Of a DNA stretch of 31,011 bases, positions 1-13,905 are shown one piece after another (position 1 is the stretch's first letter; each line of letters begins with the position of its first letter). The stretch comes from a virus. Both the position numbers and the translations under genes were made by a program. The DNA is taken from IMG/VR virus record IMGVR_UViG_3300025645_000297, positions 1-31,011 of that record; one strand, 5' to 3'. The notes under the pieces were generated by a model. It did no database searches. It was not told the DNA's origin and worked only from the letters and a program-made list of their open reading frames with translations.

Positions 1-2
1 TT

Positions 3-155
3 TTTATTTACGCACAATTACCGATATCTTCACAAATAACAAGTCCAGAATTAGGTGTTTTATTTCAAATTAAAAATAAATTAATCATTGGCATTGGCGC
101 ACAATACATTAACAACAATGTTAACGCAGTTGCTACAATAGGTGTTAAATTATGA
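3..155 (+). CDS. C-terminal end of an unknown protein (5' truncated by window edge)
   Basis: An open frame runs from the window edge to a TGA at 153-155, giving about 50 residues. The sequence alternates hydrophobic and polar residues with glycines (for example IGIGAQYINNN) and ends in GVKL, which could be the last strands of a small beta-barrel or beta-sandwich. The stop overlaps the next start as ATGA, so the two genes are probably translationally coupled. I do not recognise the family. If the genome is circularly permuted, this gene would follow the last ORF of the window, in the region of secreted and accessory proteins. Confidence 0.6.
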   Translation, partial: FIYAQLPISSQITSPELGVLFQIKNKLIIGIGAQYINNNVNAVATIGVKL

Positions 156-1333
156 GTAAAAGAAAAAAGCGATTAAAACCAAGTGAAGCAGAATTATTAG
201 GTTTTAAAGTAAGGTCTAAAACAAAATATGGAAACGCTGAATATAGAATTAATGAAGCACAACTCAAAAAACTTGCAATTATACGCTTTGATGAAAACTA
301 CGAATTAAAAAAGCAAAGCCGAAATAAAAACGGTGATGTTATTTCTGAAACTTTTGGCAAGAAGCAAAACAAACAAGATTTTGATACTTCTAAATTTACA
401 CCAATATCTTACACTACTAATCCGTTTGGTGATGGTAAATGGGCAAAGTATGATTTACCTAAAGAAGAACGTTTAAAAGCACTTAAAAACGCAATAGACG
501 CACTTAAAGAAGAAATTGAACCAACTACACCAACAGAATATAAAGAACGCTTAAACAACGCTAATTTAATTAATCAGTACACGTTAACCGATTATCATTT
601 AGGTATGATGAGTTGGGCAGAAGAAACTGGTGCAGATTGGGATTTAAAAATTGCAGAAGATACTTTAGTTAAATTTTTTGAAGTTGCAATAAAAGAAAGT
701 CCAAACGCTAAAGAGTGTGTGTTTGCACAAATAGGCGACTTCTTACATTGGGATGGTTTGGATGCTGTAACACCAGCAAGTAAACACGTTTTGGATGCTG
801 ATACTAGATTTACTAAATTAGTTCGTGTTGCTATCCGTGTTATTCGTAGAATTATAAAAATGCTATTAGAAAAATACGAAAAAGTAAATGTTATCATGGC
901 AGAGGGAAACCATGACCCAGCTTCTAGTGTTTGGCTTAGTGAGATGTTAAGCGCATTTTATGACCATGAGCCTAGATTAAATATAGATACTAATCCAGAC
1001 CCTTACTATTGCTTAACGTTCGGAAAAGTATGTTTGTTTTATCATCACGCACACAAAAAAAATATTAAAAGTATTGATACCACTTTTGTAGGTAAGTTTA
1101 AAAAAGAGTTTGGAAGTTCTGAATATGTGTATGGACATACAGGACATTTACATCATTCAGTTATTTTAGAATCTAATTTAATGACGTTAGAACAACATAG
1201 GACATTAGCAGCTAAAGATGCTTATGCTTCAAGAGGTGGTTATTTAAGTGGCAGAGATAGTAAAGTTATAACATACCATAAAAATTTCGGTGAAGTTAAG
1301 CGTTCCACAATTAATATTAATATGCTTAAATAA
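152..1333 (+). CDS. Calcineurin-like metallophosphoesterase
   Basis: The 393-residue product carries the full motif series of two-metal calcineurin-like phosphoesterases: DYH at residues 147-149, GD at 195-196, GNHD at 252-255, HH at 298-299 and GHLH at 331-334. These residues ligate the metals and act on phosphate esters such as DNA ends or nucleotides. The first 130 residues are lysine-rich, outside the catalytic fold, and may bind DNA. Similar enzymes are common in phages and are often annotated as phosphoesterases or DNA-repair exonucleases; the substrate cannot be read from the sequence. The start overlaps the preceding stop (ATGA) and no Shine-Dalgarno site is visible. A hairpin follows the stop, and the next genes are on the other strand. 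Confidence 0.88.
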   Translation: MSKRKKRLKPSEAELLGFKVRSKTKYGNAEYRINEAQLKKLAIIRFDENYELKKQSRNKNGDVISETFGKKQNKQDFDTSKFTPISYTTNPFGDGKWAKYDLPKEERLKALKNAIDALKEEIEPTTPTEYKERLNNANLINQYTLTDYHLGMMSWAEETGADWDLKIAEDTLVKFFEVAIKESPNAKECVFAQIGDFLHWDGLDAVTPASKHVLDADTRFTKLVRVAIRVIRRIIKMLLEKYEKVNVIMAEGNHDPASSVWLSEMLSAFYDHEPRLNIDTNPDPYYCLTFGKVCLFYHHAHKKNIKSIDTTFVGKFKKEFGSSEYVYGHTGHLHHSVILESNLMTLEQHRTLAAKDAYASRGGYLSGRDSKVITYHKNFGEVKRSTININMLK

Positions 1334-1356
1334 GGGCATAAAGTTAAATATGCCCT
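1333..1356. terminator. Hairpin at the end of the phosphoesterase gene
   Basis: AGGGCATA (1333-1340) and TATGCCCT (1349-1356) form a perfect 8-bp stem with an 8-nt loop, starting on the last base of the stop codon. It lies between convergent genes and could end transcripts from both sides. The U-tract expected of an intrinsic terminator is missing on either strand, so efficiency is uncertain. Confidence 0.5.
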
Positions 1357-1389
1357 AGAAAGGGAATTTATTGTTTGTTATATCACGTG

Positions 1390-1566
1390 TTATCTACAAG
1401 TTTCTTCTGGTTCGTGTTCCTTTACATACTTATAGAATCTACATAAAGCCTGTTCATACCTTTTTTTGGCTGTGCTATTTGCAAATGCCATAGATGATAA
1501 ATCGAAGAATACAGCTATCTTGGTATTTGATAGCTGTAATTCTTTTTTTAGTTGTTTAATATCCAT
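1390..1566 (-). CDS. Small HTH-type DNA-binding protein (58 aa)
   Basis: ATG at 1566 opens a 58-residue frame (start MDIKQLKKELQLSN, end EETCR). The pattern of a short helix, a turn around LSNTKIAVFFDLS, then NSTAKKRYEQAL and an amphipathic last helix resembles small Cro-like or plasmid-type helix-turn-helix proteins of Bacteroidota elements. It overlaps the end of the upstream 97-aa gene by 11 bp, so both are probably made from one mRNA. A role as repressor or antirepressor is inferred from the fold only. It is the last gene of the minus-strand module and faces the convergent phosphoesterase gene. Confidence 0.6.
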   Translation of the reverse strand: MDIKQLKKELQLSNTKIAVFFDLSSMAFANSTAKKRYEQALCRFYKYVKEHEPEETCR

Positions 1567-1849
1567 ATACCTTGCCTCTTTTTTTATCGTTCATTTTATC
1601 GAACCAATTATTAATAACTAATTCTGGAACTGTAACAATTGTAAAATTCCCATCAGAGTCATATTTCTTTTTCTCAATCATAGATATAGAAACCACTTGA
1701 GATTTAGGTAACCATTCATCATCAATTAAAATAGCTTTTTCAGTGGTTCTACTAACAGTCCATAATCCAGTATTCCAACTAACACAAGAACCATCAAAAG
1801 TTATTAAATCAAAATCTTTTAACTCGTTTAGTACGTTTGAATTTTTCAT
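1556..1849 (-). CDS. Hypothetical protein (97 aa)
   Basis: This 97-residue protein has no family I recognise. It is rich in Asp, Lys and aromatic residues and shows short beta-like stretches (KAILIDDEWLPKSQVVSIS), which may form a small beta-barrel similar to those of anti-restriction or nucleic-acid-binding proteins; this is inference. A Bacteroidetes-type promoter lies just upstream at 1873-1903, so the gene probably starts its own two-gene unit with the 58-aa HTH protein, which it overlaps by 11 bp. The leader would be only about 20 nt long. Confidence 0.6.
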   Translation of the reverse strand: MKNSNVLNELKDFDLITFDGSCVSWNTGLWTVSRTTEKAILIDDEWLPKSQVVSISMIEKKKYDSDGNFTIVTVPELVINNWFDKMNDKKRGKVYGY

Positions 1850-1872
1850 AATATTTAGTTTTTAATTATACA

Positions 1873-1903
1873 CAAATATAAGTATAAACTTATTAATACA
1901 CAA
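1873..1903 (-). promoter_or_regulatory. Bacteroidetes-type promoter (-33/-7)
   Basis: Read on the minus strand, TATATTTG (1873-1880) matches the Bacteroidetes -7 consensus TAnnTTTG, and TTG (1901-1903) lies 20 nt upstream, the usual -33 spacing. The 97-aa gene starts 24 nt downstream. Confidence 0.6.
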
Positions 1904-1968
1904 CTAAAAAAAGAATTATTTTAAGTATTTGCTTAATTTTAACATTTGCAGACCAGAAACCAGATAGA

Positions 1969-2017
1969 TAACAATGTATATAAGCCATAGAAAAAACGGC
2001 TCATATACTAAACGTTA
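1969..2017. other. Imperfect long hairpin, attC-like in shape
   Basis: GTATAT (1976-1981) pairs with ATATAC (2003-2008) and AGCC (1983-1986) with GGCT (1998-2001), with one A-C mismatch between the two helices and an 11-nt loop. Further out, TAAC (1969-1972) can pair with GTTA (2014-2017) across an internal loop. This two-box stem with an unpaired base resembles an integron attC site, but GTTAGCA is not a perfect GTTRRRY core. It sits just downstream of the minus-strand 82-aa gene, so a plain transcription terminator is the simpler alternative, although no U-tract follows. Confidence 0.35.
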
Positions 2018-2024
2018 GCAACAA

Positions 2025-2273
2025 TTACAATGCGTTAAACTTGTGTATTGTATCTTCAATATCTTGATTAACAGTATCGTGTGTTATGTTTGTTAATTCA
2101 CAGAAGCATTGCAACAGTTCCATTTGGTTGCTAACAACGTGTATAATTAATTGTTGGTCTGCGTATTTTTGCATTATTTCGCTAAGATAAATCGCATCTC
2201 TTTTTTCGTCATCCCAATTCAAAATCTCATCGCTTAATTTATTCTCTTTTAAAAATTTCTCTGCTTCTTTCAT
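2025..2273 (-). CDS. Hypothetical helical protein (82 aa)
   Basis: An 82-residue, mostly helical, charged protein (start MKEAEKFLKENKLSDEIL) containing QKYADQQ, a motif I associate with small accessory phage proteins of Bacteroidota. The function is unknown. Its start codon overlaps the TGA of an 11-codon mini-ORF encoded in the repeated leader (2270-2305), an ATGA junction that would allow coupled translation. The attC-like hairpin follows its stop. Confidence 0.55.
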   Translation of the reverse strand: MKEAEKFLKENKLSDEILNWDDEKRDAIYLSEIMQKYADQQLIIHVVSNQMELLQCFCELTNITHDTVNQDIEDTIHKFNAL

Positions 2274-2279
2274 AATTTT

Positions 2280-2320
2280 GTTTTTAATTCACAACAATTA
2301 ACCATACACTTGTCCATTAT
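2280..2320 (-). repeat. Repeated gene leader, copy A (41 bp)
   Basis: This 41-bp stretch matches 4302-4342 at 39 of 41 positions. In both places it begins with the stop codon of one minus-strand gene and ends just before the next gene. It encodes the start of a tiny frame, MVNCCELKT, which here runs into a TGA overlapping the start of the 82-aa gene. Confidence 0.85.
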
Positions 2321-2517
2321 ATACAAGGCTCAACTTCAGTCCATCCAGCGACATATATTCTATTACCATCTTTGTCTATCCCATTGCAGTACATCCCATC
2401 AAGTCTGTATATTGTAATTTCATCGCCTTTATTTATTGGTATTGATGAAGGTGGTGTTTTTACATTTTCATCAGTTACTACTACTTTTGTTCCGTATTTT
2501 ACATTATATACTTTCAT
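2317..2517 (-). CDS. Small beta-rich hypothetical protein (66 aa)
   Basis: A 66-residue protein of short beta-strands (MKVYNVKYGTKVVVTDENVK, then a DGNRIYVAGWTEVEP end), consistent with a compact SH3-like barrel. The pattern KGDEITIYRLDGMYCNGID suggests a small binding domain, but I recognise no named family. The first 41-bp repeat starts at its stop codon. It lies downstream of the glycosyltransferase gene, separated by about 120 bp of AT-rich DNA with two short inverted repeats (2573-2590 and 2618-2634). Confidence 0.6.
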   Translation of the reverse strand: MKVYNVKYGTKVVVTDENVKTPPSSIPINKGDEITIYRLDGMYCNGIDKDGNRIYVAGWTEVEPCI

Positions 2518-2617
2518 TCTCTATGTTTTTTTAAACGTTATATTGGTAATTAATAGCATTATAGTTGTGTTTTTACCTTTATAATGGTAATTTGTATGTT
2601 TGTTTATTATCTGTTTT

Positions 2618-2634
2618 ACAAACTATTAGTTTGT
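2618..2634. other. Short perfect inverted repeat after the glycosyltransferase gene
   Basis: ACAAACT-ATT-AGTTTGT forms a 7-bp stem with a 3-nt loop, 7 bp beyond the minus-strand stop at 2642. A second, weaker repeat, TTACC-N8-GGTAA, lies at 2573-2590. They may end the glycosyltransferase transcript or bind a regulator ahead of the 66-aa gene. There is no U-tract. Confidence 0.35.
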
Positions 2635-2641
2635 TTATAAA

Positions 2642-4030
2642 TTACTCAAATTCTGAAAAGTTAAAAATATCTGTTTGAATGGTTTTATCTAACTTTTTTA
2701 GTTTGTTATTGTAATTGTTTAAAAAAGGCTTTTTATAGTTAATAATTAAATCTTTGTATTTGTTTTCTAATTCAGATTTATAGTTACTTGTTTTATATTC
2801 ATTGCTTTTTATTATTTTCATTCTGTAATTATTAATCTTAGGTAATAAAGTTAAATCAATAACACTTCTTAATCTTTGTTTAAAACCACTATAATCTACT
2901 TGATGATGCCATCTGTTAAATTTCCAAACAACTTCTGTAACATCAGGATGCATATCTTTAAGCATTTGAGATTTATTTATAGTTCCCTCTTTTGCATAAA
3001 ATTCATCAGTATTACCACCTTTCATTTTTTGAGTTGTAATTTTACCTGCTAATAAAGAATTAAATTGTACAGTACACCATCCATCTTTTAAAACTCTTAA
3101 ACTTAAATCTGTATCTTCATTGTATCTTCCTCTCCATTTATAAGGTATATCATTTCTAATAAGTAAATAAGAGTATATCCTCGTATTCATAACGTATGGA
3201 GGCACTCTATCTATTTCTTTACAGAATTTAGAGTAATTTAAACCTGCTATTGCAATATTATCATATCTATCTACAAAATCCTCAATAGCACAAAAGAAAG
3301 CACCTGTTCTACATTTTATTTTATTGTTTTGGTATAACCAATGAAAACCTTCATTTGTATTATCGTCCATAACCCAATGCCACTTAAAACCATTATTTAC
3401 ACTATGTTCCCAACAGAAGTTCCTTGCAGCACCTGGTCCTGTACTATTTTCACTACCAATATCAGAAAAAGTATCATAATCTTCTTTATATTTTAAATCT
3501 AAAGGTATTACATTTGCATAATTTAAATCTAAATTATTTTTATAATCTTTAACTTCTAAAGGCTCAACAACTACATTATGCTTAACTTCCATTTGTGATA
3601 GATAAACACTTGTCTTACAAATATCAGCTCGACCTTTACTAACGACATAAATAGGGTATCTATTATCACTATCACCACCAATAACTCTGTACTTAGAATT
3701 TTTTCCCATTATTAATTTAGGAAACCATACGCTTTGAGTTTTATCTGTAATGTTTTGTTCTAAAATAGAAGATAATTCTTCTTTAGTTTTATCTGTATGT
3801 AAAATAACTTTATGATATGCTTCTATTTTTTTAGACTCAAATTCTGGCATACTAATATAATTAGAATTACAATCGTGTTTATCTTTTATCGGTTTGCTTT
3901 TAGATGTTTTTTTAATTTTAATAACACTTTCGGTGTCTAAATTATATTCAGTTACATTTTCGTTAAAGTTTTTTAAACCTAATTCTAAAACCGATTCTTT
4001 ATTATCAAATCTACAAATTATTTTTTTCAT
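2642..4030 (-). CDS. Glycosyltransferase of the TET-associated (TAGT/GREB1-like) type, putative DNA-base modifier
   Basis: The 462-residue protein has a nucleotide-sugar transferase core at about residues 125-395: YPIYVVSKGRAD (125-136), VVVEPLE (153-159), GPGAARNFCWEHS (198-210), WVMDDN (219-224, a DxD-like site), IAGLNY, and WRGRYNEDTDLSLRVL (299-314) with KMKGGNTDEFY (335-345). This series matches what I know of the TET-associated glycosyltransferase family, phage enzymes thought to put sugars on hydroxymethylated DNA bases and distantly related to the GREB1 C-terminal domain. The first 120 residues and the last 65 lysine-rich residues are extra. No TET/JBP hydroxylase, methylase or pyrimidine hydroxymethylase is seen in the window, so substrate and partner are open. 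It lies in a minus-strand accessory block, apart from the structural genes. Confidence 0.72.
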   Translation of the reverse strand: MKKIICRFDNKESVLELGLKNFNENVTEYNLDTESVIKIKKTSKSKPIKDKHDCNSNYISMPEFESKKIEAYHKVILHTDKTKEELSSILEQNITDKTQSVWFPKLIMGKNSKYRVIGGDSDNRYPIYVVSKGRADICKTSVYLSQMEVKHNVVVEPLEVKDYKNNLDLNYANVIPLDLKYKEDYDTFSDIGSENSTGPGAARNFCWEHSVNNGFKWHWVMDDNTNEGFHWLYQNNKIKCRTGAFFCAIEDFVDRYDNIAIAGLNYSKFCKEIDRVPPYVMNTRIYSYLLIRNDIPYKWRGRYNEDTDLSLRVLKDGWCTVQFNSLLAGKITTQKMKGGNTDEFYAKEGTINKSQMLKDMHPDVTEVVWKFNRWHHQVDYSGFKQRLRSVIDLTLLPKINNYRMKIIKSNEYKTSNYKSELENKYKDLIINYKKPFLNNYNNKLKKLDKTIQTDIFNFSEFE

Positions 4031-4036
4031 AATATT

Positions 4037-4288
4037 TTATAATTTATTAGCCATCCTATTGTACGTATCTTTTTTGCCTATTTCTTTTAAAAAGTATTTT
4101 CCGTTTTCAATACCACTTTCACAAAGTTCTTCTTCAAAATCTACACAACCATATTTATTTCTTGAATTAATAGCGACTTTACTCATAATGCTTTTTATAA
4201 TGGTCTTGTCGTAATATATTTTTTCTGCATCAAAATAATTAATTAATTCTAATTGATACTTTTTTCTGTAATTTACTTTTTCACTCAT
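4037..4288 (-). CDS. Hypothetical protein (83 aa) upstream of the glycosyltransferase
   Basis: A charged, probably helical protein beginning MSEKVNYRKKYQLELINYF. The frame stays open upstream to an ATG at 4327, which would add 13 residues (MVSCCELKTNIEI). That extension lies in the repeated leader, which elsewhere is separate from the gene, so I chose the inner ATG at 4288. The stop is 6 bp from the glycosyltransferase start, suggesting co-translation and possibly a linked role. No family recognised. NSRNKYGCVDFEEELCESG contains two cysteines but no clear metal site. Confidence 0.55.
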   Translation of the reverse strand: MSEKVNYRKKYQLELINYFDAEKIYYDKTIIKSIMSKVAINSRNKYGCVDFEEELCESGIENGKYFLKEIGKKDTYNRMANKL

Positions 4289-4301
4289 AATTTCTATGTT
4301 T

Positions 4302-4342
4302 GTTTTTAATTCACAACAACTAACCATACACTTGTCAATTAT
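4302..4342 (-). repeat. Repeated gene leader, copy B (41 bp)
   Basis: Matches 2280-2320 with two substitutions. It starts at the stop codon of the 51-aa HTH gene and carries the frame MVSCCELKT, here open into the following 83-aa gene instead of closed by a stop. Confidence 0.85.
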
Positions 4343-4497
4343 TTCAAATAATTTAGTATTCTATTTCTAGTTTTATAAGTTAAATGCTCCCATTCTTTAC
4401 TACACCAATAAGATACTAGTGATGCTTTTAAGCCTTTTTGTTCTGCAAAAGCATACTGCGACTTATATTTTTTTTTAATGTGTTCTTTTAAATTCAT
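4339..4497 (-). CDS. Cro/XRE-like helix-turn-helix protein (51 aa)
   Basis: From ATG at 4497 the product is 51 residues: MNLKEHIKKKYKSQYAFAEQ, then KGLKASLVSYWCSKEWEHLT and a last helix. The pattern S-Q-x-x-F-A-x-x-x-G-x-x-x-x-x-V-S-x-W is that of XRE/Cro-type HTH domains. The longer frame starting at 4524 is rejected because its first ATG would lie inside the -7 box. It is the first gene of the minus-strand module and faces the early operon across divergent promoters, the usual place for a phage Cro/CI-like switch protein. Confidence 0.7.
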   Translation of the reverse strand: MNLKEHIKKKYKSQYAFAEQKGLKASLVSYWCSKEWEHLTYKTRNRILNYLK

Positions 4498-4512
4498 ATA
4501 TTTTAATTTGTA

Positions 4513-4542
4513 CAAATATAACATAAAAATAATTAATACAAA
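4513..4542 (-). promoter_or_regulatory. Promoter of the minus-strand module
   Basis: On the minus strand TATATTTG (4513-4520) matches the Bacteroidetes -7 box, with TTTG (4539-4542) 18 nt upstream as a -33 element. The expected start site lies only about 10 nt before the HTH gene's ATG at 4497. Confidence 0.65.
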
Positions 4543-4566
4543 GTTTTTTTAATTAAAATTTATTTG

Positions 4567-4574
4567 TATATTTG
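4567..4574 (+). promoter_or_regulatory. Early promoter -7 box, divergent from the HTH promoter
   Basis: TATATTTG lies inside TTTATTTGTATATTTGC (4559-4575), which recurs exactly at 8385-8401 ahead of the replication operon. The first early ORF begins 21 bp downstream. No clear TTG at -33 is seen, so it may need an activator. Confidence 0.6.
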
Positions 4575-4595
4575 CCTAACTTAAAACATTAAAAC

Positions 4596-4745
4596 ATGGA
4601 AACATTAAAGCAATTACAAGATTATGCAAACACAACGGACAACGTTTACTTGCAAAAAAAATTAGATTTAATCGAAAGAGAAATCGAAACGCTTATACAT
4701 ACAGAGCGAATGAAAGTGTATGATACTTGTTATAAAATGCAATAA
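4596..4745 (+). CDS. Small early helical protein (49 aa)
   Basis: The first early ORF encodes METLKQLQDYANTTDNVYLQ followed by KKLDLIEREIETLIHTERMK, a single long amphipathic helix that could form a coiled coil. It begins a run of five tiny, tightly packed or overlapping ORFs (4596-5226) behind the early promoter. No family recognised. Such first early genes in phages often encode host-takeover peptides, but nothing in the sequence proves that here. Confidence 0.6.
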   Translation: METLKQLQDYANTTDNVYLQKKLDLIEREIETLIHTERMKVYDTCYKMQ

Positions 4746-4747
4746 CT

Positions 4748-4870
4748 ATGAACTACTACGACCAAATAGACCCACAAGGTGAGGACGAGATAACAGAGTG
4801 TGTACATTGCGGCAGTTACTGCACCGATACATATTGTTCAATAGAATGTAAAAAATACGACACAGAATGA
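4748..4870 (+). CDS. Tiny cysteine-rich, zinc-ribbon-like protein (40 aa)
   Basis: Starts 2 bp after the previous stop. The 40-residue product contains CVHCGSYCTDTYCSIEC, that is C-x2-C-x3-C-x4-C-x3-C, which could bind one zinc ion. The N-terminus is acidic (YYDQIDPQGEDEITE). The start of the next ORF overlaps its last codons (ATGA). No named family recognised. Confidence 0.55.
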   Translation: MNYYDQIDPQGEDEITECVHCGSYCTDTYCSIECKKYDTE

Positions 4871-5004
4871 TTCATAAGATACTACCAACAGGACTTCACA
4901 CAATTACAATAGGTAAGCGAGTGCATATTTACACAGAAAAAGAATACCAGCATTTAACTTGGTGGGAATTAGTAAAACTAAAATACTTTAACGATGAAAA
5001 ATAA
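4867..5004 (+). CDS. Small early protein (45 aa)
   Basis: Begins with an ATGA overlap of the preceding stop. The 45 residues (MIHKILPTGLHTITIGKRVH, then a TWWELVKLKYF end) suggest a short beta-hairpin followed by a helix. The next ORF overlaps its last 11 bp. Function unknown; supported mainly by the tight overlapping arrangement. Confidence 0.5.
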   Translation: MIHKILPTGLHTITIGKRVHIYTEKEYQHLTWWELVKLKYFNDEK

Positions 5005-5101
5005 AAGTAAAGAATACAGCATGAAAGCAATAGTTTATAGCGTTATTGCTATGGCTATAATAGTAGTAATTTTAAACGTTATAAATCTATTTATAATATG
5101 A
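4994..5101 (+). CDS. Single-pass membrane peptide (35 aa)
   Basis: After a basic start (MKNKSKEYSMK) the product is one hydrophobic segment, AIVYSVIAMAIIVVILNVI, long enough to cross the membrane once. It overlaps both neighbours. A role such as superinfection exclusion or lysis timing is possible by analogy with other tiny phage membrane proteins, but unproven. Confidence 0.5.
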   Translation: MKNKSKEYSMKAIVYSVIAMAIIVVILNVINLFII

Positions 5102-5226
5102 ATATAATTTGCAACTACGTGCCAACTAACTGGCAACCAAACGACACTAAAACCATTAACAAGTGGTTTAAAAAAATACAAAAACATCTAAAAACTGAAC
5201 AAATAAAATTCAAAGACTATGAGTAA
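5098..5226 (+). CDS. Small early protein (42 aa)
   Basis: Starts in an ATGA overlap with the membrane peptide and ends 8 bp inside the next gene. The basic 42-residue sequence contains YVPTNWQPND followed by a lysine-rich helix (NKWFKKIQKHLKTEQIKF), compatible with nucleic-acid binding. No family recognised. Confidence 0.5.
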   Translation: MNIICNYVPTNWQPNDTKTINKWFKKIQKHLKTEQIKFKDYE

Positions 5227-5662
5227 AGACCTTTTTTTACAAATGCGTGAAGCAGAGATAATGACCGACAACTTTCTACCAACTAAAAAAGAAATTAAGT
5301 TAAGTGCTGAAAAGTTTGCAAGTGATTTAATAGATGCTGGTGAGATTAACATAACGGAAACATTTGCACAAGCGTTAAGACTTAACGAAGCATTAACTAT
5401 TATTACAACTACATTAAAAAAAGCAATGCCAGAAGAAAACTTTGAGGGTTTTGGTTTAAAAGGCACGTTTAAAGGTGGTGGTGATACTAAGAATTACGAC
5501 GACTGCGAAGTTTATGCAGAGATTAAAAAGCAATTAGCAGATAGAAAAGCATTACTAGATATGGCACTAAATACTGGTACTATATTTTACGATTCAGAAG
5601 GTATAGAAGTGCCTAAAGTTTCTACTACACCAAGAAAATCAAGTTTAACTATTAACTACTAA
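5219..5662 (+). CDS. Early phage protein of unknown function (147 aa)
   Basis: This 147-residue, mostly helical protein is followed by a putative recombination gene 4 bp downstream. The middle has FEGFGLKGTFKGGGDTKNYD, a glycine-rich turn, then a helix (EIKKQLADRKALLDMALNTG) and a basic tail (TTPRKSSLTINY). The position just before a recombination-type gene suggests a partner in DNA recombination, such as a nuclease inhibitor or accessory factor, but no catalytic motif is visible and I do not recognise the family. It overlaps the 42-aa ORF by 8 bp. Confidence 0.6.
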   Translation: MSKDLFLQMREAEIMTDNFLPTKKEIKLSAEKFASDLIDAGEINITETFAQALRLNEALTIITTTLKKAMPEENFEGFGLKGTFKGGGDTKNYDDCEVYAEIKKQLADRKALLDMALNTGTIFYDSEGIEVPKVSTTPRKSSLTINY

Positions 5663-5666
5663 TATT

Positions 5667-6053
5667 ATGAATATAGAAAAATTAACAGCACTTTGGAAAA
5701 AATACGGATTAAGTAAAGAAGATGGTTTTAAGCATCAGCATTACACAATTATAACACGTTCTGGAATTGATAAAATACAAGCGATTGAAAAAATATTTAT
5801 AGATTACGATGTTATAAAATGTGAACCTAATTTTGCAGTAGTTAAAGCAAATGCAAAAAAAGGCGATGCTAATATACAAACGTTTGGAAGTGCTATAAAA
5901 GGCGCATCATTTAAAGATGGTAATACAAATTCTTGGTATGTTATGGAAATGGCAGAAAAACGTGCAATGAGTAGAGCAGTTTTAAAACTAACTGGGTTCT
6001 ATGAGTTAGGTGTATTTGGTGAAGATGAAAGCGAAGATTTTAAACGCAAGTAA
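5667..6053 (+). CDS. Putative single-strand annealing/recombination-like protein (128 aa)
   Basis: The 128-residue product starts MNIEKLTALWKKYGLSKEDG and has a central beta-rich part (IFIDYDVIKCEPNFAVVKAN) followed by the helix EMAEKRAMSRAVLKLTGFY and an acidic end (GEDESEDF). A helix of the type xxAExRAxxRAxxxLxG after a beta-sheet is typical of the core of ERF/Rad52-like single-strand annealing proteins, and its neighbours (SSB, HNH, RusA) fit a recombination module. The assignment is by motif shape only, and the protein is shorter than most family members. Its stop overlaps the next start (TAATG). Confidence 0.4.
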   Translation: MNIEKLTALWKKYGLSKEDGFKHQHYTIITRSGIDKIQAIEKIFIDYDVIKCEPNFAVVKANAKKGDANIQTFGSAIKGASFKDGNTNSWYVMEMAEKRAMSRAVLKLTGFYELGVFGEDESEDFKRK

Positions 6054-6349
6054 TGAACGATATATTAACTAAAATTACAGACATCATAGAAACGTACGAA
6101 AGTGGTGCTTTTAAAGATTTACACGTTATGCATAGAGAGTTGACGTGTAATATCTTTAAGCTATCATTAGAGCAGGTTAAAGCACACCAGAATTATAATA
6201 AACAATACTATTTATCAGAACATAAAACAAACGCAGCCAAAGAGCGAGAATGTGATAAGTTAATTCCAGAATTATATCTTTGTCGCAAAGTAATGGAAAC
6301 AGCAAAGGGTGTTAGTATAGCGATGGGTTATGAGATTAAAATGAATTAA
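6053..6349 (+). CDS. Helical phage protein of unknown function (98 aa)
   Basis: A 98-residue all-helical protein overlapping the previous stop by one base. YLSEHKTNAAKERECDKLIP followed by ELYLCRKVMETAKGVSIAMG resembles small conserved phage proteins found next to annealing or SSB genes; their function is not known to me. A strong Shine-Dalgarno-like AGGAGG follows the stop directly, belonging to the next leader. Confidence 0.55.
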   Translation: MNDILTKITDIIETYESGAFKDLHVMHRELTCNIFKLSLEQVKAHQNYNKQYYLSEHKTNAAKERECDKLIPELYLCRKVMETAKGVSIAMGYEIKMN

Positions 6350-6432
6350 AGGAGGTTAAAAAAATGAAAATCTTTACTTGTCGGTAAGGTAGCTATTGTT
6401 AATGATTGATTCAAAGCGTGAATTTTAACCTT
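6350..6432 (+). promoter_or_regulatory. Leader with rare strong Shine-Dalgarno, 7-codon ORF and matching anti-SD segment
   Basis: AAAGGAGGTTAAAAAAATG gives a strong ribosome site before a 7-codon ORF (6364-6387, MKIFTCR). AGGTTAAAA (6353-6361), which includes part of the SD, is perfectly complementary to TTTTAACCT (6423-6431), so a hairpin of about 80 nt could hide the SD. The rest of the 175-bp gap (6350-6524) holds an A/T-rich stretch, a short AATAG/CTATT stem with a T-run near 6472-6494, and the 9-bp tandem repeats. Confidence 0.4.
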
Positions 6433-6492
6433 ATATTTACCATTGGACACGCAAATTAACATAAGACTGACTAATAGGAAAGACTATTTTTT

Positions 6493-6519
6493 TTAAATAA
6501 ATTAAATAAATTAAATAAA
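6493..6519 (+). repeat. Three tandem copies of TTAAATAAA
   Basis: Three exact 9-bp units lie just ahead of the 99-aa gene start at 6525, in its 5' leader. This may be a slippage-prone A/T tract that gives an unstructured ribosome-entry region. Confidence 0.8.
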
Positions 6520-6524
6520 TAAAA

Positions 6525-6824
6525 ATGGAATTAAAAACAGAACAACAAGTAATTGATTTAGTAGGAAAAGAAACTACTTTAAAATTTGATTTTATGTCAG
6601 ATGAAGTTATGACTTACACAACATTAGTGCCTTTTATAAAAGATGGTATGGTTAGAAATTATAAGATTAGTTTTTTTTATGAGGAACTTCAAGATATTTT
6701 TTGCTACGATAATTTATCTAATTTTTTGAGTAATTTTCAAATCTTTGAACTTATTGAGCAAGATGAGTGTTGTAAAGGAAATGAAACAGTATTATATCAT
6801 AACAAATATAAAGGCAATGAGTAA
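6525..6824 (+). CDS. Hypothetical protein (99 aa)
   Basis: A 99-residue acidic protein with alternating beta and helical stretches (KFDFMSDEVMTYTTLVPFIK, YKISFFYEELQDIFCYDNLS). No family recognised. The last 8 bp (ATGAGTAA) contain the start of the GIY-YIG gene. Because a homing endonuclease follows directly, this gene may have been altered or carried in along with it. Confidence 0.55.
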   Translation: MELKTEQQVIDLVGKETTLKFDFMSDEVMTYTTLVPFIKDGMVRNYKISFFYEELQDIFCYDNLSNFLSNFQIFELIEQDECCKGNETVLYHNKYKGNE

Positions 6825-7347
6825 TATTAAAACTTATCCAAACAATGATATTTTTAACGAAAGTTTTGTTATTTATCAAATTGAAAATGATATAACAAAA
6901 GATGCTTATGTAGGATATACAACTGTTAAATTAAAAACTAGATATGCAAATCATAATGGTTGTCATAGTAATAGTAAATATTCTAACAGTAAAAATAGAA
7001 CAACTTTGTATTTAGATTTTAAAAAGTATGGAAAAGAAAATTTTACAATGTCTATACTTAAAAGATGTAATACAAAAGAGGAACTTATTTTAAAAGAAAA
7101 GGAATATCAAAAGCAAAAAAAGTACATTAACTATAATAAAAACTTGTTACAAAGAGATACTAGGAGTGGTAAAAATAAAGGCAAGGTTATTCAATTAACT
7201 GATTCAAATGGTAACGTTTTATTGTTTAATAAACCTATTGATGTTGCTAAAAAATTTAACGTTCATCGCTCAAGCATTTTAAAAGCAATAAGTAATAATT
7301 ATAGGTTTTTAAGAAAATATAATGCTAAATTTATAACAATTAAATAA
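6817..7347 (+). CDS. GIY-YIG homing endonuclease with IENR1/NUMOD-type C-terminal domain
   Basis: From the ATG at 6817 the protein has 176 residues. FVIYQIE (17-23) and YVGYT (31-35) are the GIY and YIG strands, R42 fits the catalytic arginine, and E94 or E96 in ILKEKEY the metal-binding glutamate. Residues about 113-160 (VIQLTDSNGNVLLFNKPIDV, then a helix-turn-helix with HRSSILKAISN) match intron-encoded nuclease repeat DNA-binding modules. The frame extends up to 6745, but that part lies inside the preceding gene. The gene is free-standing between the 99-aa gene and the SSB gene, so it is probably a selfish mobile gene that cuts a related phage locus lacking it. Confidence 0.85.
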   Translation: MSNIKTYPNNDIFNESFVIYQIENDITKDAYVGYTTVKLKTRYANHNGCHSNSKYSNSKNRTTLYLDFKKYGKENFTMSILKRCNTKEELILKEKEYQKQKKYINYNKNLLQRDTRSGKNKGKVIQLTDSNGNVLLFNKPIDVAKKFNVHRSSILKAISNNYRFLRKYNAKFITIK

Positions 7348-7353
7348 ATAAAC

Positions 7354-7734
7354 ATGAGTAACAAAGTAACAGGTAAAATAGTAGAGATACTAGAAACACA
7401 AAAAGGAACTAGCAACGCTGGTAAAGAATGGCAAAAATTAACATTCGCTATTGATACTGGCGAACAGTACAATAACATACTAGCGTTTGAAGTATTTGGT
7501 GATGAAAAGGTAGAAAACTTTAACAAATACAATAAGGTAGGTAGAAACGTAGAAGTAGAGTTTAATCTTAGTTCTAACAAATGGAAAGATAAATACTTTA
7601 CTTCTGCATCAGCTTGGAAAATAAGCAAAGCAAATGATACAGAAACAGCAATTGCACAAGCTACTGCGATGGTAGATAAAGTATTTGCACCAGCAGATAA
7701 TTTAAATTCACCACAAGACGATTTACCGTTTTAA
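7354..7734 (+). CDS. DUF3127-type single-stranded DNA-binding protein
   Basis: The 126-residue product starts MSNKVTGKIVEILETQKGTS, with AGKEWQKLTFAIDTGEQYNN and KYFTSASAWKI further on, the pattern of the DUF3127 family, an OB-fold group of Bacteroidota. It ends in a flexible acidic tail closing with DDLPF, the partner-binding tip seen in SSBs. It probably coats phage ssDNA during replication and recombination. It sits 6 bp after the homing endonuclease stop and directly before the HNH gene (TAA|ATG), within the recombination module. Confidence 0.85.
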   Translation: MSNKVTGKIVEILETQKGTSNAGKEWQKLTFAIDTGEQYNNILAFEVFGDEKVENFNKYNKVGRNVEVEFNLSSNKWKDKYFTSASAWKISKANDTETAIAQATAMVDKVFAPADNLNSPQDDLPF

Positions 7735-8016
7735 ATGAACACTTACAGCGATAGCAAAGGCAAACGTTATACCACACCACAAATTGAGCAACGCATTAAA
7801 AAGGCTGCGCTTGAATTGTTAGAAATTCAGTTTATAGAACATGGTTATAATTTTTGCCAATGCTGTTTGCGTAATGATGACAAGCCAATAGATGTTAGCC
7901 ACACTATAAGTCGTAAAAAAGCTAAAGAAGATGGTAATGTTGAGATATTATGGGATTACGATAACTTAGAAATACTTGGTAGAAGATGCCACAAAATCAA
8001 AGACAAATTAATATAA
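7735..8016 (+). CDS. HNH/Zn-finger-type nuclease-like protein (93 aa)
   Basis: The 93-residue protein has a cysteine cluster (C41, C43, C44) and VSHTISRKKA with H56, then WDYDNLEILGRRCHKIKD with N77 and the C85-H86 pair. This spacing of Cys pair, His, Asn and Cys-His resembles a compact HNH (beta-beta-alpha-metal) fold, related in layout to NinG/Rap-type recombination endonucleases. The role is inferred as DNA processing, in line with the RusA gene that overlaps its last 31 bp. It directly follows the SSB stop. Confidence 0.6.
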   Translation: MNTYSDSKGKRYTTPQIEQRIKKAALELLEIQFIEHGYNFCQCCLRNDDKPIDVSHTISRKKAKEDGNVEILWDYDNLEILGRRCHKIKDKLI

Positions 8017-8324
8017 AACCTTTATCGGTTAATCAAGCGTGGGCAGGTCGTAGATTTAAAACACCTAAATACAAAGCGTTTGAAAAAGAAATGCTTTTAA
8101 TCTTACCTAATATTAAAATCGATTTAAATGCACGTTTAAGATTAGATGTAGTATTTGGATATAGTAGTAGAGCTTCTGATATAGATAATGGCTTAAAACC
8201 GTTACTAGATTGTTTACAAAAGAAGTTAGGCATAAACGATAACAAGATATACGAGTTAAACGTAAAAAAAGACATAGTTAAAAAGGGTAAAGATTTTATA
8301 AAATTTGAAATAATAGAACTATAA
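7986..8324 (+). CDS. rusA: RusA-like Holliday junction resolvase
   Basis: The 112-residue protein has the short RusA layout: LSVNQAWAGRRF near the start (RusA SVN motif), then ASDIDNGLKPLLDCLQ with D65, D67, K71 and D75, then GINDNKIYELNVKKD with D85, the acidic residues that bind the catalytic metals. It would cut four-way junctions arising in phage recombination or before packaging. The ATG at 7986 is the only good start and overlaps the HNH gene by 31 bp. It is the last gene of the first early operon; a probable terminator follows. Confidence 0.85.
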   Translation: MPQNQRQINIKPLSVNQAWAGRRFKTPKYKAFEKEMLLILPNIKIDLNARLRLDVVFGYSSRASDIDNGLKPLLDCLQKKLGINDNKIYELNVKKDIVKKGKDFIKFEIIEL

Positions 8325-8329
8325 AATGC

Positions 8330-8379
8330 AAGGGGTGTCTAAATTAATATTAATATTTCTTTAAATTCTAACGCCCTTT
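8330..8379 (+). terminator. Probable terminator of the first early operon
   Basis: AAGGGGTGT (8330-8338) pairs with ACGCCCTTT (8371-8379) with one bulged G and one G-U pair, enclosing an A/T-rich, partly self-complementary loop. It starts 6 bp after the RusA stop and is followed by GTTATTTTATTT. Confidence 0.45.
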
Positions 8380-8392
8380 GTTATTTTATTTG

Positions 8393-8400
8393 TATATTTG
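8393..8400 (+). promoter_or_regulatory. -7 box ahead of the structured leader and replication operon
   Basis: TATATTTG, in the same 17-bp context (TTTATTTGTATATTTGC) as the early promoter at 4559-4575. Transcripts would begin near 8405, inside the leader structure. The first following start codon is at 8543, so a 5' region of about 140 nt holds no gene. No TTG is found at the -33 distance. Confidence 0.6.
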
Positions 8401-8401
8401 C

Positions 8402-8509
8402 GTTAAGTTACGCTTCGACAATATAGTAACTAAAAAAATAACACAAGCCTTATAATGATAGTGGAAGTCGAAGCCTACTTGATTTATGAGGCTTTTTGTA
8501 TAACTTAAC
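8402..8509 (+). ncRNA. Candidate structured leader or small RNA with attenuator-like alternative helices
   Basis: GTTAAGTTA (8402-8410) is complementary to TAACTTAAC (8501-8509). GCTTCGAC (8412-8419) pairs perfectly with GTCGAAGC (8467-8474). AAGCCT (8471-8476) pairs with AGGCTT (8489-8494), followed by a U-run (8493-8497), making an intrinsic terminator. The second and third helices share bases 8471-8474 and exclude each other, as in an antiterminator/terminator switch. A second AAGCCT copy (8445-8450) could also compete for AGGCTT. It could control the replication operon or yield a small RNA of about 95 nt. Confidence 0.55.
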
Positions 8510-8542
8510 TTTTGCTTGTTTTTAATAAAACATTCACGCATT

Positions 8543-8761
8543 ATGAGTAAACATAAAATAGTATTTCCTTGTGAAGAAAATTTAAACACATACTTGGAGG
8601 TTTCTGCGATGGAATCAAACACAGTTTTGATAGAAATTTATGAGTCTAATAAAAGTGAATTTGAATCATTATCACAAAGAATTTGGCTAGACAAAGCAAC
8701 TTCTATTAAATTAGTACGTGTATTAAAACATGAAATTTCTAAAATACAAGACAATGAATAG
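8543..8761 (+). CDS. Hypothetical protein (72 aa), first gene of the replication operon
   Basis: The ATG at 8543 gives 72 residues (MSKHKIVFPCEENLNTYLEV, later EIYESNKSEFESLSQRIWLD). A TTG-initiated extension upstream runs into the leader and is not needed. The predicted beta-beta-beta-helix shape and acidic character could fit a small replication-associated or anti-host protein; no family recognised. The last 8 bp overlap the initiator gene start. It follows the structured leader by about 35 bp. Confidence 0.6.
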   Translation: MSKHKIVFPCEENLNTYLEVSAMESNTVLIEIYESNKSEFESLSQRIWLDKATSIKLVRVLKHEISKIQDNE

Positions 8762-9449
8762 TTACGAACTTAGTAGAAAGTGGTTTGATTGGTGTTTTGA
8801 TAATGCCAGTAAGATAAGACCAATACATACAGCCTTATTTTTTTTTATAATAGAACATAACAACAGATTGGGTTGGAAAAAAGAGTTTGGTTTACCAAGA
8901 GATATGAGTATGGATGCAATAGGTGTTAAAAATAATAGGACATATTCTTCTGCATTTAATGACCTAGAAAATTGGGGTTTTATAAAAGTTATTGAGAGGT
9001 CAAAAAATCAGTATTCAGCAAACATAATATCAATATTTGGTTGTGTAAAAAATACACCAGCAACTACTTCGGCACTAGACGAAGCAATGCTAAAGCACTT
9101 ACATAAGCAAAGCATAAGCATTGCCCCTATAAATAAACCTAATAACATAGAAACAAACAACAAGGGTGTTGATGATTTTAAAATTAAATTAGATTTTGAT
9201 GCTATTGATGAATGGATTAAAGAAATTGGTAAATCACCTGTTTATCTTGATGGTCTTTATTCAAGTTTAAAGATTAAAAAAGGTAAGGTAAGTAGTTTAT
9301 TAGAAAAATTTAAAGCACATTTAAAAATGTTTCCTCAAAAACATGATAATTTTAGTAAATTTAAAAACCACTTTTCACATTGGGCAAAAACAGAAAAGGA
9401 TAGAGGAAGATTAACAGAATATGAAAAACAAACAGCAGGAGAGTTATGA
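8754..9449 (+). CDS. Phage replication initiator / replisome organizer with N-terminal winged helix
   Basis: From ATG 8754 the protein has 231 residues. The N-terminal 100 (MNSYELSRKWFDWCFDNASK, IRPIHTALFFFIIEHNNRLG, then SMDAIGVKNNRTYSSAFNDL and WGFIKVIERSKNQYSANII) form a winged-helix domain typical of Bacteroidota phage O-like replication proteins. The C-terminal part (IDEWIKEIGKSPVYLDGLYS, then a basic helical stretch) resembles the DUF7833-type domain of such proteins, probably for contact with the helicase or loader. It should bind the origin and recruit the ATPase encoded next, whose start overlaps its stop. The earlier ATG at 8730 lies deep in the preceding gene. Confidence 0.8.
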   Translation: MNSYELSRKWFDWCFDNASKIRPIHTALFFFIIEHNNRLGWKKEFGLPRDMSMDAIGVKNNRTYSSAFNDLENWGFIKVIERSKNQYSANIISIFGCVKNTPATTSALDEAMLKHLHKQSISIAPINKPNNIETNNKGVDDFKIKLDFDAIDEWIKEIGKSPVYLDGLYSSLKIKKGKVSSLLEKFKAHLKMFPQKHDNFSKFKNHFSHWAKTEKDRGRLTEYEKQTAGEL

Positions 9450-10261
9450 TTAAAAAACTAGACATAAAAGATTTTCAAGAAGAAATAACGTTTAATCCTG
9501 CTGATGTATTAAACGAAGCATTAATAAACCCAGAGGAAGAAATAACAAGACCACCAATAGCTATTAGCATAGGTTATAAATACGAAGAATTAGTACCTTT
9601 AGTAACTTTTGGAAATTTCTGTTGCATCGTCGGCGCAAGCAAGAGTATGAAATCGTTTTTAAAATCTGCGTTATTAGCGTGTTGCATCGGTGGTAAATCA
9701 CAACATTACTTTCCAGAAATTAAAGGGCATGACATCGCAGGTAAATACGTAATAGACATAGATACAGAGCAAGGTAAATACCACGTTCAACGAGTTGTTA
9801 AGCGTGTTAATACTATGGTCGGGCAAATATATCAAGGATATAAAGGTTTAGCGTTAAGACCTAACACACCAAAAGAAAGAGTGGCATTCATTGAATGGAT
9901 ATTAACAGAAAGTGAATTTTCTGGTAAGATTGCAGTTCTTAGTATTGATGGCGTTGCTGATTTAATTGAAGATGTAAACGATTTAAAAACATCAAATGAA
10001 ATTACGCAAAAACTAATGACATGGTCAAATGATTATAACATAGCAATTATTACTATATTGCATAAGAATTTTGATAGTTCAAAACCTACTGGTCATTTAG
10101 GTTCAGCAGTTTTAAAGAAAGCAGAAACAACCGTATTTGTAAACAAAGAAAATGACATAGTAACGGTAACAGCTAAATATTCAAGAAACATACCTTTTGA
10201 TGATTTTCAATTTAGTGTAGATGAAAAAGGAATACCATTTGAAACACAAAAACCATTTTAA
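9446..10261 (+). CDS. RepA-like AAA/RecA-fold replicative ATPase
   Basis: The 271-residue product has a Walker A motif GASKSMKS at residues 63-70 and a Walker B strand KIAVLSIDG with D168, followed by a conserved GSAVLKKAETTVFV stretch near the end of the core. This is the layout of RepA/AAA_25 helicase-type ATPases found beside phage initiators; it lacks a DnaB N-terminal domain. It probably acts as helicase or helicase loader at the phage origin. Start and preceding stop overlap as ATGA. Confidence 0.8.
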   Translation: MIKKLDIKDFQEEITFNPADVLNEALINPEEEITRPPIAISIGYKYEELVPLVTFGNFCCIVGASKSMKSFLKSALLACCIGGKSQHYFPEIKGHDIAGKYVIDIDTEQGKYHVQRVVKRVNTMVGQIYQGYKGLALRPNTPKERVAFIEWILTESEFSGKIAVLSIDGVADLIEDVNDLKTSNEITQKLMTWSNDYNIAIITILHKNFDSSKPTGHLGSAVLKKAETTVFVNKENDIVTVTAKYSRNIPFDDFQFSVDEKGIPFETQKPF

Positions 10262-10262
10262 T

Positions 10263-10715
10263 ATGAGTACAATAAACAAAGCAATAAAGCATTTTGAATG
10301 GAAATTAACAAAACATTGGAAGCCAACAGATAAAGATTTAGAAGCCTATAATGAAATCGTAGAGTTTACAGAAGCAAAACTTAAACAACAGTATAACGAT
10401 AACCAACTATTCGCAAAGTTGTATATTAGTTTCTACGGTGAACTAATTAAATACTACGATACAACGGTATTTGATAACACACCACAAAAAGCACTGCATA
10501 AAATACTAGATACACCAATAGAAAATTTAATACAGAAGTTTTTAGATAAAGTTAATTTGCAAGAACAAACATTACAACATCGCAAAACAAACGGTATAAA
10601 GCACCCACGAATAGTAAGCACCGAAGATATAGATTTAGATGCAGAAGCTATGACATACCAAGAAACAGAAGATAATTTAACCGCTATGATAAACATGGCA
10701 CTAACAAAATACTAA
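10263..10715 (+). CDS. Hypothetical replication-operon protein (150 aa)
   Basis: ATG at 10263 is one base past the ATPase stop; the frame stays open upstream to 10221, but that part lies inside the ATPase gene. The 150-residue, largely helical acidic protein starts MSTINKAIKHFEWKLTKHWK and contains NTPQKALHKILDTPIENLIQ and TMTYQETEDN-like acidic stretches near the end. No family recognised. The stop is immediately followed by the next ATG, so it belongs to the replication operon. Confidence 0.6.
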   Translation: MSTINKAIKHFEWKLTKHWKPTDKDLEAYNEIVEFTEAKLKQQYNDNQLFAKLYISFYGELIKYYDTTVFDNTPQKALHKILDTPIENLIQKFLDKVNLQEQTLQHRKTNGIKHPRIVSTEDIDLDAEAMTYQETEDNLTAMINMALTKY

Positions 10716-11270
10716 ATGGAACTACAAGAATTAAAAAACAAATTGGATAAATTTTACGGATTTGATATATCTACAAAATCAAGGGTAGCAAAATATGTAA
10801 AAGCCAGAAGCGTATACTACAAGATAATAACAACACAGTTATTAGGTTATACATTTGAATCAATAGGAAAGTCAATCGGTAGAAACCATGCCACAGTTAT
10901 ACATGGCTTAAAAACATTTGAAGGCTATTATTTAATCGATATACATTTTAAAAAAACATATCACCAATTCTTAAATGATTTAAATGATACTGATTTTATA
11001 GCAATAGAACCAGTTAACAATGAAGAAATAGAAGAACTAAAAAAGCAATATCAAAAAAAGATAATTGATTTACAATGTAGGATACATAATTTAGAAAAGC
11101 AAAACAAACACGCTAACAATACACACGTTGATTTTAAGCCACTATTTGAATTAAATGATAAGGAAGTATTAGATTTTATAGAAACACGCTTAAAACCGTA
11201 TCTAAATATGATTAAAAGTAAAAAGATGCACAAAGAAATAATAGAGGTTGTTGGTGCAAGACTTAGGTAA
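10716..11270 (+). CDS. DnaA domain IV-like DNA-binding protein with coiled coil
   Basis: The first 70 residues contain SRVAKYVKARSVYYKIITTQ, then YTFESIGKSIGRNHATVIHG (45-64), which matches the helix-turn-helix and DnaA signature of the bacterial initiator's C-terminal domain (GR-x-H-x-TV-x-H). No AAA domain is present; instead a coiled-coil segment (about 101-130, EEIEELKKQYQKKIIDLQ) and a helical tail follow. The protein may bind DnaA boxes on phage or host DNA and act as an origin-marking or host-replication-blocking factor; both are inference. It starts directly at the preceding stop. Confidence 0.78.
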   Translation: MELQELKNKLDKFYGFDISTKSRVAKYVKARSVYYKIITTQLLGYTFESIGKSIGRNHATVIHGLKTFEGYYLIDIHFKKTYHQFLNDLNDTDFIAIEPVNNEEIEELKKQYQKKIIDLQCRIHNLEKQNKHANNTHVDFKPLFELNDKEVLDFIETRLKPYLNMIKSKKMHKEIIEVVGARLR

Positions 11271-11300
11271 ATAAAAAATAATTTGTATATTTATCGAAAT

Positions 11301-11828
11301 ATGAATATATTATCACTAGCTTATAAGTATCACAGCGACTGGCTTAATATAGCCAAGTCAATAGTAAAGAATGACTTTGCCGAAGATATTGTGCAGGAAT
11401 TTTATATTAAATTAGATAAGTATGCGAAGTATGAAATGTTTATTTTTGCAGATGGTAGCGTAAATAAAACCTATGCTTACATGATACTTCGGTCTATTTG
11501 TTTAAACTATCTTAAAGAAAAAAATAAGTATTGCAAAGTAGATTTACATGATGGTTACAGCATAGATGAAAATGATATTGAAGCAAAAGAAGCCATTGAA
11601 AAGATTTATACTAAAATAGATAACGAATTAAAAAACTGGCATTGGTACGATAAAGATTTATTTAAAATTTATAAAGACGAAAACATATCTATTCGTAAGT
11701 TAGCAAAAGAAACAACGATTAGTAGTTCTTCTATATTTCATACCTTAAAAAGTTGTAAAGAAAAGATAAAAGATAAATTTTCAGAAGATTACCAGGATTA
11801 TTTAAATCAAGATTATGAACGAATTTAA
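11301..11828 (+). CDS. Small sigma-70/ECF-like sigma factor
   Basis: With ATG 11301 the product has 175 residues. WLNIAKSIVKNDFAEDIVQE (about 14-33) and the following FYIKLDKY match sigma region 2 (core binding and -10 recognition), and KDLFKIYKDENISIRKLAKE with ISSSSIFHTLKSCKEKIKDK matches the region 4 helix-turn-helix. Length and two-domain layout fit ECF sigma factors. A weak -7-like TATATTTA lies at 11286-11293, just upstream; the TTG extension from 11283 overlaps it and is rejected. Located at the border of replication and packaging genes, it probably directs late transcription. It overlaps the next gene by 14 bp. Confidence 0.8.
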   Translation: MNILSLAYKYHSDWLNIAKSIVKNDFAEDIVQEFYIKLDKYAKYEMFIFADGSVNKTYAYMILRSICLNYLKEKNKYCKVDLHDGYSIDENDIEAKEAIEKIYTKIDNELKNWHWYDKDLFKIYKDENISIRKLAKETTISSSSIFHTLKSCKEKIKDKFSEDYQDYLNQDYERI

Positions 11829-12216
11829 AGGCGACAAACGCACAAAGGAATACAAAGAATGGAAAGCCAAGTTTGAAAACAAATCAAAAGGCTTAGGCGA
11901 TGATATTGCTAAATTTACAAAAGCTACTGGTATAGACAAGGTAGTAAAAGCAATAGCACCAGATTGTGGTTGTGATAAACGACAAGACTTACTCAACAAG
12001 AAAGTACAATACAAAATAGTGAACTGCCTTAATCAAGAAGATTACGAATACCTAGATAACATATTTAAACTTGCTAAGAAAGTTACACCAAAACAACAGC
12101 ATAGAATGAAAGACATATATCAAAAGACTTTTAATCGTAAAGTAGTTAGCAGTTGTTTAACGTGTTCGTTTATCAAATCAATTTACAATCCTTTAAAAAA
12201 ATTGTATGAGAACTAA
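11815..12216 (+). CDS. Conserved-type phage protein with cysteine motifs (133 aa), unknown function
   Basis: The basic 133-residue protein has KGLGDDIAKFTKATGIDKVV then APDCGCDKRQDLLNKK (a CxC near residue 50) and near the end SSCLTCSFIKSIYN (CxxC). The four cysteines could bind zinc. Its constant place ahead of the terminase genes in related Bacteroidota phages, as I remember them, hints at packaging or late regulation, but the function is unknown. It overlaps the sigma gene by 14 bp and the next ORF by 11 bp. Confidence 0.6.
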   Translation: MNEFKGDKRTKEYKEWKAKFENKSKGLGDDIAKFTKATGIDKVVKAIAPDCGCDKRQDLLNKKVQYKIVNCLNQEDYEYLDNIFKLAKKVTPKQQHRMKDIYQKTFNRKVVSSCLTCSFIKSIYNPLKKLYEN

Positions 12217-12331
12217 GAAAGTGACACAAGAACAAAGGATAGCAAGATTGGAAAAGGTAGTGTTTCAATTATTTGCAACTAATAAAATGATACAAGACGA
12301 ATTAAAATTATTGCAGGATAAAATCAAATAG
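12206..12331 (+). CDS. Tiny coiled-coil protein (41 aa)
   Basis: ATG at 12206 overlaps the previous gene by 11 bp. The 41 residues (MRTKKVTQEQRIARLEKVVF, QLFATNKMIQDELKLLQDKI) form one continuous amphipathic helix with heptad leucine/isoleucine spacing, likely a coiled coil. It could be an assembly or anchoring peptide next to the terminase; function unknown. Confidence 0.5.
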   Translation: MRTKKVTQEQRIARLEKVVFQLFATNKMIQDELKLLQDKIK

Positions 12332-12347
12332 TTAAATTCTATTAGAA

Positions 12348-13815: not shown

Positions 13816-13823
13816 TATATTTG
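13816..13823 (+). promoter_or_regulatory. -7 box abutting the terL stop codon
   Basis: TATATTTG begins on the base after the TAG stop and is followed by C as at the other two plus-strand boxes. Only about 45 bp without any ORF separate it from the terminator at 13869, so it may make a short RNA of about 70 nt. No -33 TTG is seen. Confidence 0.4.
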
Positions 13824-13898: not shown

Positions 13899-13905
13899 GT
13901 TTGTT

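Follow-up and report, generated by a model that had tools for sequence, protein, structure and literature searches.

The 31,011-nucleotide stretch of viral DNA analysed here (IMG/VR virus record IMGVR_UViG_3300025645_000297, positions 1 to 31,011; hereafter the window) carries a TET-associated-type glycosyltransferase (TAGT) that is fused to a dedicated partner domain, in an effectively complete phage genome in which no TET, methylase or hydroxymethylase gene was found. The gene is mobile and is maintained by purifying selection. On balance, and with slightly better than even confidence, partner and TAGT are considered to constitute a mobile, self-contained sugar-transferase module that acts on phage DNA in counter-defence. 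We infer DNA as the acceptor, as well as the base, the sugar and the counter-defence role, and the link to DNA is made through family membership and one ParB-like fusion.

Family assignment and partner domain

The TAGT gene is an intact ORF of 462 amino acids with an ATG start (Table 1). The first-pass annotation had placed the protein in the TAGT/GREB1-like group and proposed a profile search against both families. The search bore out the TAGT assignment: PF20691 was matched over its whole length (profile positions 1-205 of 205) with an E-value of 3.8e-40 and 138.4 bits, above the curated cut-off of 27.5 bits. The GREB1 link gained no support, since the Pfam scan of the protein at E 1 returned nothing besides PF20691, GREB1 included. 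The protein also matches PHROG 842, 'beta-glucosyl-HMC-alpha-glucosyltransferase' (E 8e-49), and a search of solved structures by sequence returned none. DDN222-224, N304-E305-D306 and GG338-339 are all invariant in 72 homologues, and in the alignment the DxD, ED and GG motifs are common to the window TAGT, TET-linked TAGTs and T6 TAGTs. The predicted structure (pLDDT 89, pTM 0.86) is a confident model with a GT-A fold and a DxD-like motif. It matches models of viral TAGTs, with TM up to 0.90 of the target, and also a beta-glucosyl-HMC-alpha-glucosyltransferase. Matches in the PDB, to GT-A and nucleotidyltransferase folds, are weak, with E-values that never fall below 0.001; the top match (E 0.0025) is among solved GT-A enzymes, for example mannosyl-3-phosphoglycerate synthase.

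Table 1. Features of the TAGT gene and the adjoining minus-strand block, in window positions.
Feature	Position	Strand	Basis
TAGT gene	2642..4030	-	ORF call, PF20691, PHROG 842; contig G001 has an identical copy
Catalytic TAGT domain, residues 125-339	3014..3658	-	PF20691 full length; resembles phage TAGTs in structure comparison
E305-D306 of 'RGRYNEDTDLSLR', presumed catalytic region	3113..3118	-	Invariant in 72 homologues; D retained in TET-linked and T6-type TAGTs
D222-D223-N224, presumed metal/nucleotide-sugar site	3359..3367	-	Invariant in 72 homologues; DDD in aligned TET-linked and T6-type TAGTs
Partner domain, residues ~57-118 ('YISMPEF...DKTQSVWFPKL')	3677..3862	-	Own domain model, E 1.3e-21; alignment
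Possible degraded second copy of the partner domain (residues 1-49)	3884..4030	-	Predicted beta-alpha-beta; E 3.3
Small ORF that ends 6 bp before the TAGT gene starts	4037..4327	-	ORF call; no PHROG match
Possible DNA-binding regulator of 61 aa, opening the minus-strand block	4339..4524	-	Weak match to PHROG 8 transcriptional regulator, E 0.005
Possible Bacteroidota promoter (TTTG-N18-TATATTTG), head of the minus-strand block	4513..4542	-	Position is the sole argument

Residues 57-118 of the window protein align with a separate protein of about 75-115 amino acids (typically about 80) in other phages, with the signature "W..MPEF...KTKSIW.P". Judged by this alignment, the partner domain of the window is a fused copy of that small protein. 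A profile built from the small protein in this analysis was run over 51 independent lineages, and the partner was found in 47 of them, either fused to the TAGT (20) or as an upstream ORF (27). Most of the upstream ORFs overlap the TAGT start by no more than about 50 bp, and some have a gene inserted between; two of the four lineages without a partner are truncated by a contig edge. When viral contigs were scanned by the partner protein alone, a catalytic TAGT was present in 77 of 80 loci. The domain was present in 15 records of isolated phages, in each case at a TAGT gene or locus, and matches in bacterial genomes likewise carry it. Comparison of the domain with Pfam and PHROGs gave no convincing match. 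In one lineage, L056, the partner is fused to a DNA-associated, ParB-like domain (ParB_N, E 1.1e-4, just under the curated cut-off); L062 resembles it by eye, unconfirmed by Pfam.

Residues 1-49 may represent a second, degraded copy of the partner domain: the match of the window protein to the partner model is weak (E 3.3), whereas homologues match better (L007, E 5.9e-5; L008, E 0.08). Two partner-type TAGTs per phage were observed at L003 (9792-11045) and L005 (12566-13819), and in tandem in Vibrio phage Kuja (L085, 7668-10380); such pairs may indicate that two sugars are added sequentially. The TAGT at L053 (1-2258) lacks the partner domain; in its stead, genes for an N6/N4 DNA methylase and another methyltransferase lie ahead of this TAGT.

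Genome closure, mobility and the minus-strand block

The first-pass annotation had reported no modification partner for the TAGT in the window and had suggested that one might lie outside it. The analysis found such a partner neither in the window nor in the 971-bp stretch that completes the genome. In the window, Pfam and PHROG scans gave no profile pointing to base modification, and family searches found no TET/JBP (PF12851), no thymidylate synthase/hydroxymethylase (PF00303) and no C5-methylase (PF00145), the last being absent also from the Pfam matches of the closing stretch. A match to PHROG 1530 (phrog_1530), 'DNA methyltransferase', was rejected, because the protein (21651-22283) is an XkdF-like head-maturation protease; this label is a trap for automatic annotation. 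The dinucleotide composition of the window (GC raised, TC low) holds nothing diagnostic.

Window positions 1-17921 are 99.97% identical to contig G001 and positions 28863-31011 are 99.9% identical to it; the contig joins both window-end stretches across 971 bp that encode a small coiled protein, an M15-type endolysin and an Rz-like protein. From these two metagenomic contigs, the genome appears to be a circle or a permuted molecule of about 31,982 bp, of which the window makes up about 97%, and is thus effectively complete. Because the closing stretch is filled with lysis genes, a helper hidden beyond the window is unlikely, and the suggested location of the partner outside it is almost ruled out.

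The genes around TAGTs in other phages supply no common helper either. Besides the partner, no neighbour recurs within 2.5 kb in at least 6 of the 51 lineages. Mom, Dam and an N6/N4 methylase were considered as a conserved base-modifying neighbour and rejected as parts of the system, since each occurs in one member among 111 neighbours. The Mom-family match (PF25680) came from a pooled Pfam scan that does not name the member; by eye it appears to be the gene two positions after the TAGT at L007 (12382-13062).

The TAGT gene behaves as a moron, as had been suggested from its location, in that it is mobile and maintained. Seven phage contigs (G002-G008; for G008 the first 20 kb only was compared) carry TAGT DNA that is 75-78% identical to that of the window, have no other blastn match to it, and range in G+C from 25 to 39%. 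Conversely, a TAGT is absent from all 20 contigs selected for their capsid similarity, five of them being 73-78% identical and 26-31 kb long. A rough dN/dS of about 0.12-0.15 against the nearest relatives, for which dS is near saturation, and of 0.02 between two close copies shows at the sequence level that the gene is under purifying selection. The host is probably a flavobacterium or a relative, because capsid relatives occur in Nonlabens phages, a Por sorting domain is encoded and the G+C content is 31%. The sorting domain, of the C-terminal Por secretion system type, is found in a small phage protein (30259-30795) that adjoins the lysis genes.

The minus-strand accessory block that had been described around the gene was confirmed: six minus-strand ORFs span 1556-4524 with plus-strand genes on both sides, an exonuclease gene (phrog_704) on one side and replication genes on the other. 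The small ORF directly upstream of the TAGT likely shares a transcript with it. The promoter pattern listed at the head of the block occurs three times in the window, and chance alone would give 3.7 occurrences. A 44-bp direct repeat, 95% identical between its copies (2277-2320 and 4299-4342), lies in both cases just upstream of minus-strand small genes (2025-2273 and 4037-4327) and looks like a duplicated leader or promoter. Amid the replication genes, a GIY-YIG homing-endonuclease-like gene (6745-7347) was observed, the frame of which overlaps the ORF at 6525-6824.

Comparison with known TAGT systems

The TAGTs of Aeromonas phages Aeh1, 65 and phiAS5 and of Tenacibaculum phage PTm1 belong to the same subfamily as the window TAGT, to which they are 49-61% identical (61% for PTm1). 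In RefSeq they are named 'beta-glucosyl-HMC-alpha-glucosyltransferase'. As in the window, their partner domain is fused, and no TET was found in the records searched. These phages are 220-235 kb in size, compared with about 32 kb for the window phage, in which a helper gene that lies far away or goes unseen is much less likely. The Aeh1 glucosyltransferase has been listed, after Iyer 2013, as one that 'presumably modifies DNA, unknown base' (PMC8056088). In T4-like phages without gene 42, which include Aeh1 and 65, cytosine was believed to be largely unmodified, restriction sensitivity having been demonstrated for some unnamed members of this group only (PMC2993671). If cytosine is unmodified in Aeh1 and 65, the acceptor would not be hmC, or modification would be sparse, or the acceptor would not be DNA.

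The T6-type TAGT is implicated in the addition of glucose to glucosyl-hmC DNA, giving gentiobiosyl-hmC (PMC13390438, PMC13216743). T6 Ggt, which adds the second glucose onto alpha-glucosyl-hmC, matches PF20691 like the window TAGT, and its WxxDD and ED motifs align, although no significant identity was detected between the two by pairwise BLAST. Its gene adjoins a dCMP hydroxymethylase gene and has no partner domain; the window TAGT is the opposite on both counts.

Nonlabens phage P12024L, the nearest isolated relative of the window phage by capsid protein, carries a complete TET - TAGT - methylase operon (L286, 16409-18674), none of the three genes of which is found in the window phage. Its TAGT is 24% identical to that of the window (E 1e-9), lies on a different branch and in a different place, and has no partner domain. 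At TET-linked loci, the TAGT follows TET in 8 distinct contigs, and the partner domain was found in none of 22 loci. In the tree, TET-linked TAGTs form a group (100% support) apart from the T6-type and partner-type TAGTs; the window TAGT clusters with partner-type members at 97-100%, but support is only 61% for the node that unites all partner-type TAGTs. No TET was detected in 47 records with partner-type TAGTs, many of them fragments, although contigs of 198 and 155 kb and phages of 107-235 kb are included. That initial search had no working control; a later search of large isolated phages with partner-type TAGTs added Mycobacterium phage Nigel and P12024L as controls, detected TET in both, and again found none in the partner-type phages. 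Thymidylate-synthase-family genes were found among partner-type records only in large phages, by a profile that cannot separate synthase from hydroxymethylase.

According to PMC13216743, 288 out of the 753 phages that carry T-even-type transferases have a TAGT without alpha-GT or beta-GT; these TAGTs are flagged there as potential new transferases, and the window TAGT is of the kind counted. The first-pass annotation, which stood as to family, missing partner and moron character, had overlooked this already large group of lone TAGTs in the literature as well as the N-terminal partner domain. The partner-domain anatomy is the new element here. Neither the domain nor its mutual exclusion with TET was found mentioned in the part of PMC13216743 consulted or in the other open literature searched.

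Acceptor and mode of action

In the favoured reading of a self-contained module acting on phage DNA, a GT-A-fold TAGT catalytic domain fused to its dedicated partner domain, the latter being a separate upstream-encoded subunit in other phages, would be expressed from the minus-strand accessory block. The enzyme would take an activated sugar from the host and attach it to phage DNA, the partner domain would recognise or position the acceptor, and the modified DNA would escape host nucleases. This reading is supported by the TAGT family, by the motifs shared with TET-linked and T6 TAGTs, by the structure matches and by the ParB-like fusion at L056, as well as by the dedication of the partner, the closed genome, the lack of TET in the records searched, the mobility of the gene and its purifying selection. 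Counting against it, neither the genome nor any recurring neighbour supplies an enzyme that would make a hydroxylated base, and the largely unmodified cytosine presumed for the group of Aeh1 and 65 also weighs against it. Rather unlikely, though worth stating, is that the enzyme is a one-step DNA glycosyltransferase, which would place the sugar straight onto an ordinary base with no prior hydroxylation and would serve as a portable anti-restriction module across unrelated phages.

The GT-A fold, to which the PF20691 sugar transferases belong, also serves proteins and glycans as acceptors. Transfer to a virion protein, a host protein or a surface glycan is therefore a credible, if unlikely, alternative, which is favoured by the closed genome without any base-modifying partner, by the breadth of acceptors used by GT-A enzymes and by Vibrio phage 1.076.O, in which the gene lies between the portal and head-morphogenesis genes. 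Across phages, however, the gene varies freely in position, among replication, structural and tRNA regions, with no fixed structural neighbour; the nearest matches in sequence and structure are DNA-linked TAGTs, and the annotation gives no sign of a membrane enzyme. It is improbable that the host makes the acceptor base, for example a modified or hydroxylated one, and the phage adds the sugar only. Such an arrangement would explain why a phage-encoded modification partner is dispensable in every lineage, but the hosts of the subfamily are diverse (Tenacibaculum, Vibrio, Aeromonas, Shewanella, Pectobacterium) and have no common known modified base, and DNA synthesised during infection would often escape host modification.

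Many ORFs of the window have no match, the TAGT-adjacent ORF included, and an acceptor-making enzyme unseen by profiles could be sought among these unannotated small genes. The lack of a recurrent neighbour means that such an enzyme would have to sit elsewhere or differ each time, and its existence is given a low probability. The presence of exactly a TET-TAGT-methylase cassette in P12024L, the nearest isolated backbone relative, would suit a decayed, non-functional leftover from which the other genes were lost. This is very improbable and largely refuted by the purifying selection, by the intact catalytic residues and by the differences in identity, branch, place and partner domain from the P12024L gene.

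Phages commonly carry a TAGT but none of the other known DNA glucosyltransferases; the window phage comes close to being the smallest clean case, with a closed genome of about 32 kb, one TAGT and no known helper. The partner domain can serve as a marker in the sequence by which TAGTs are divided into at least two groups, TET-linked and partner-linked. It also names the protein pair to co-express, and use of the catalytic half alone may explain failed or missed activity.
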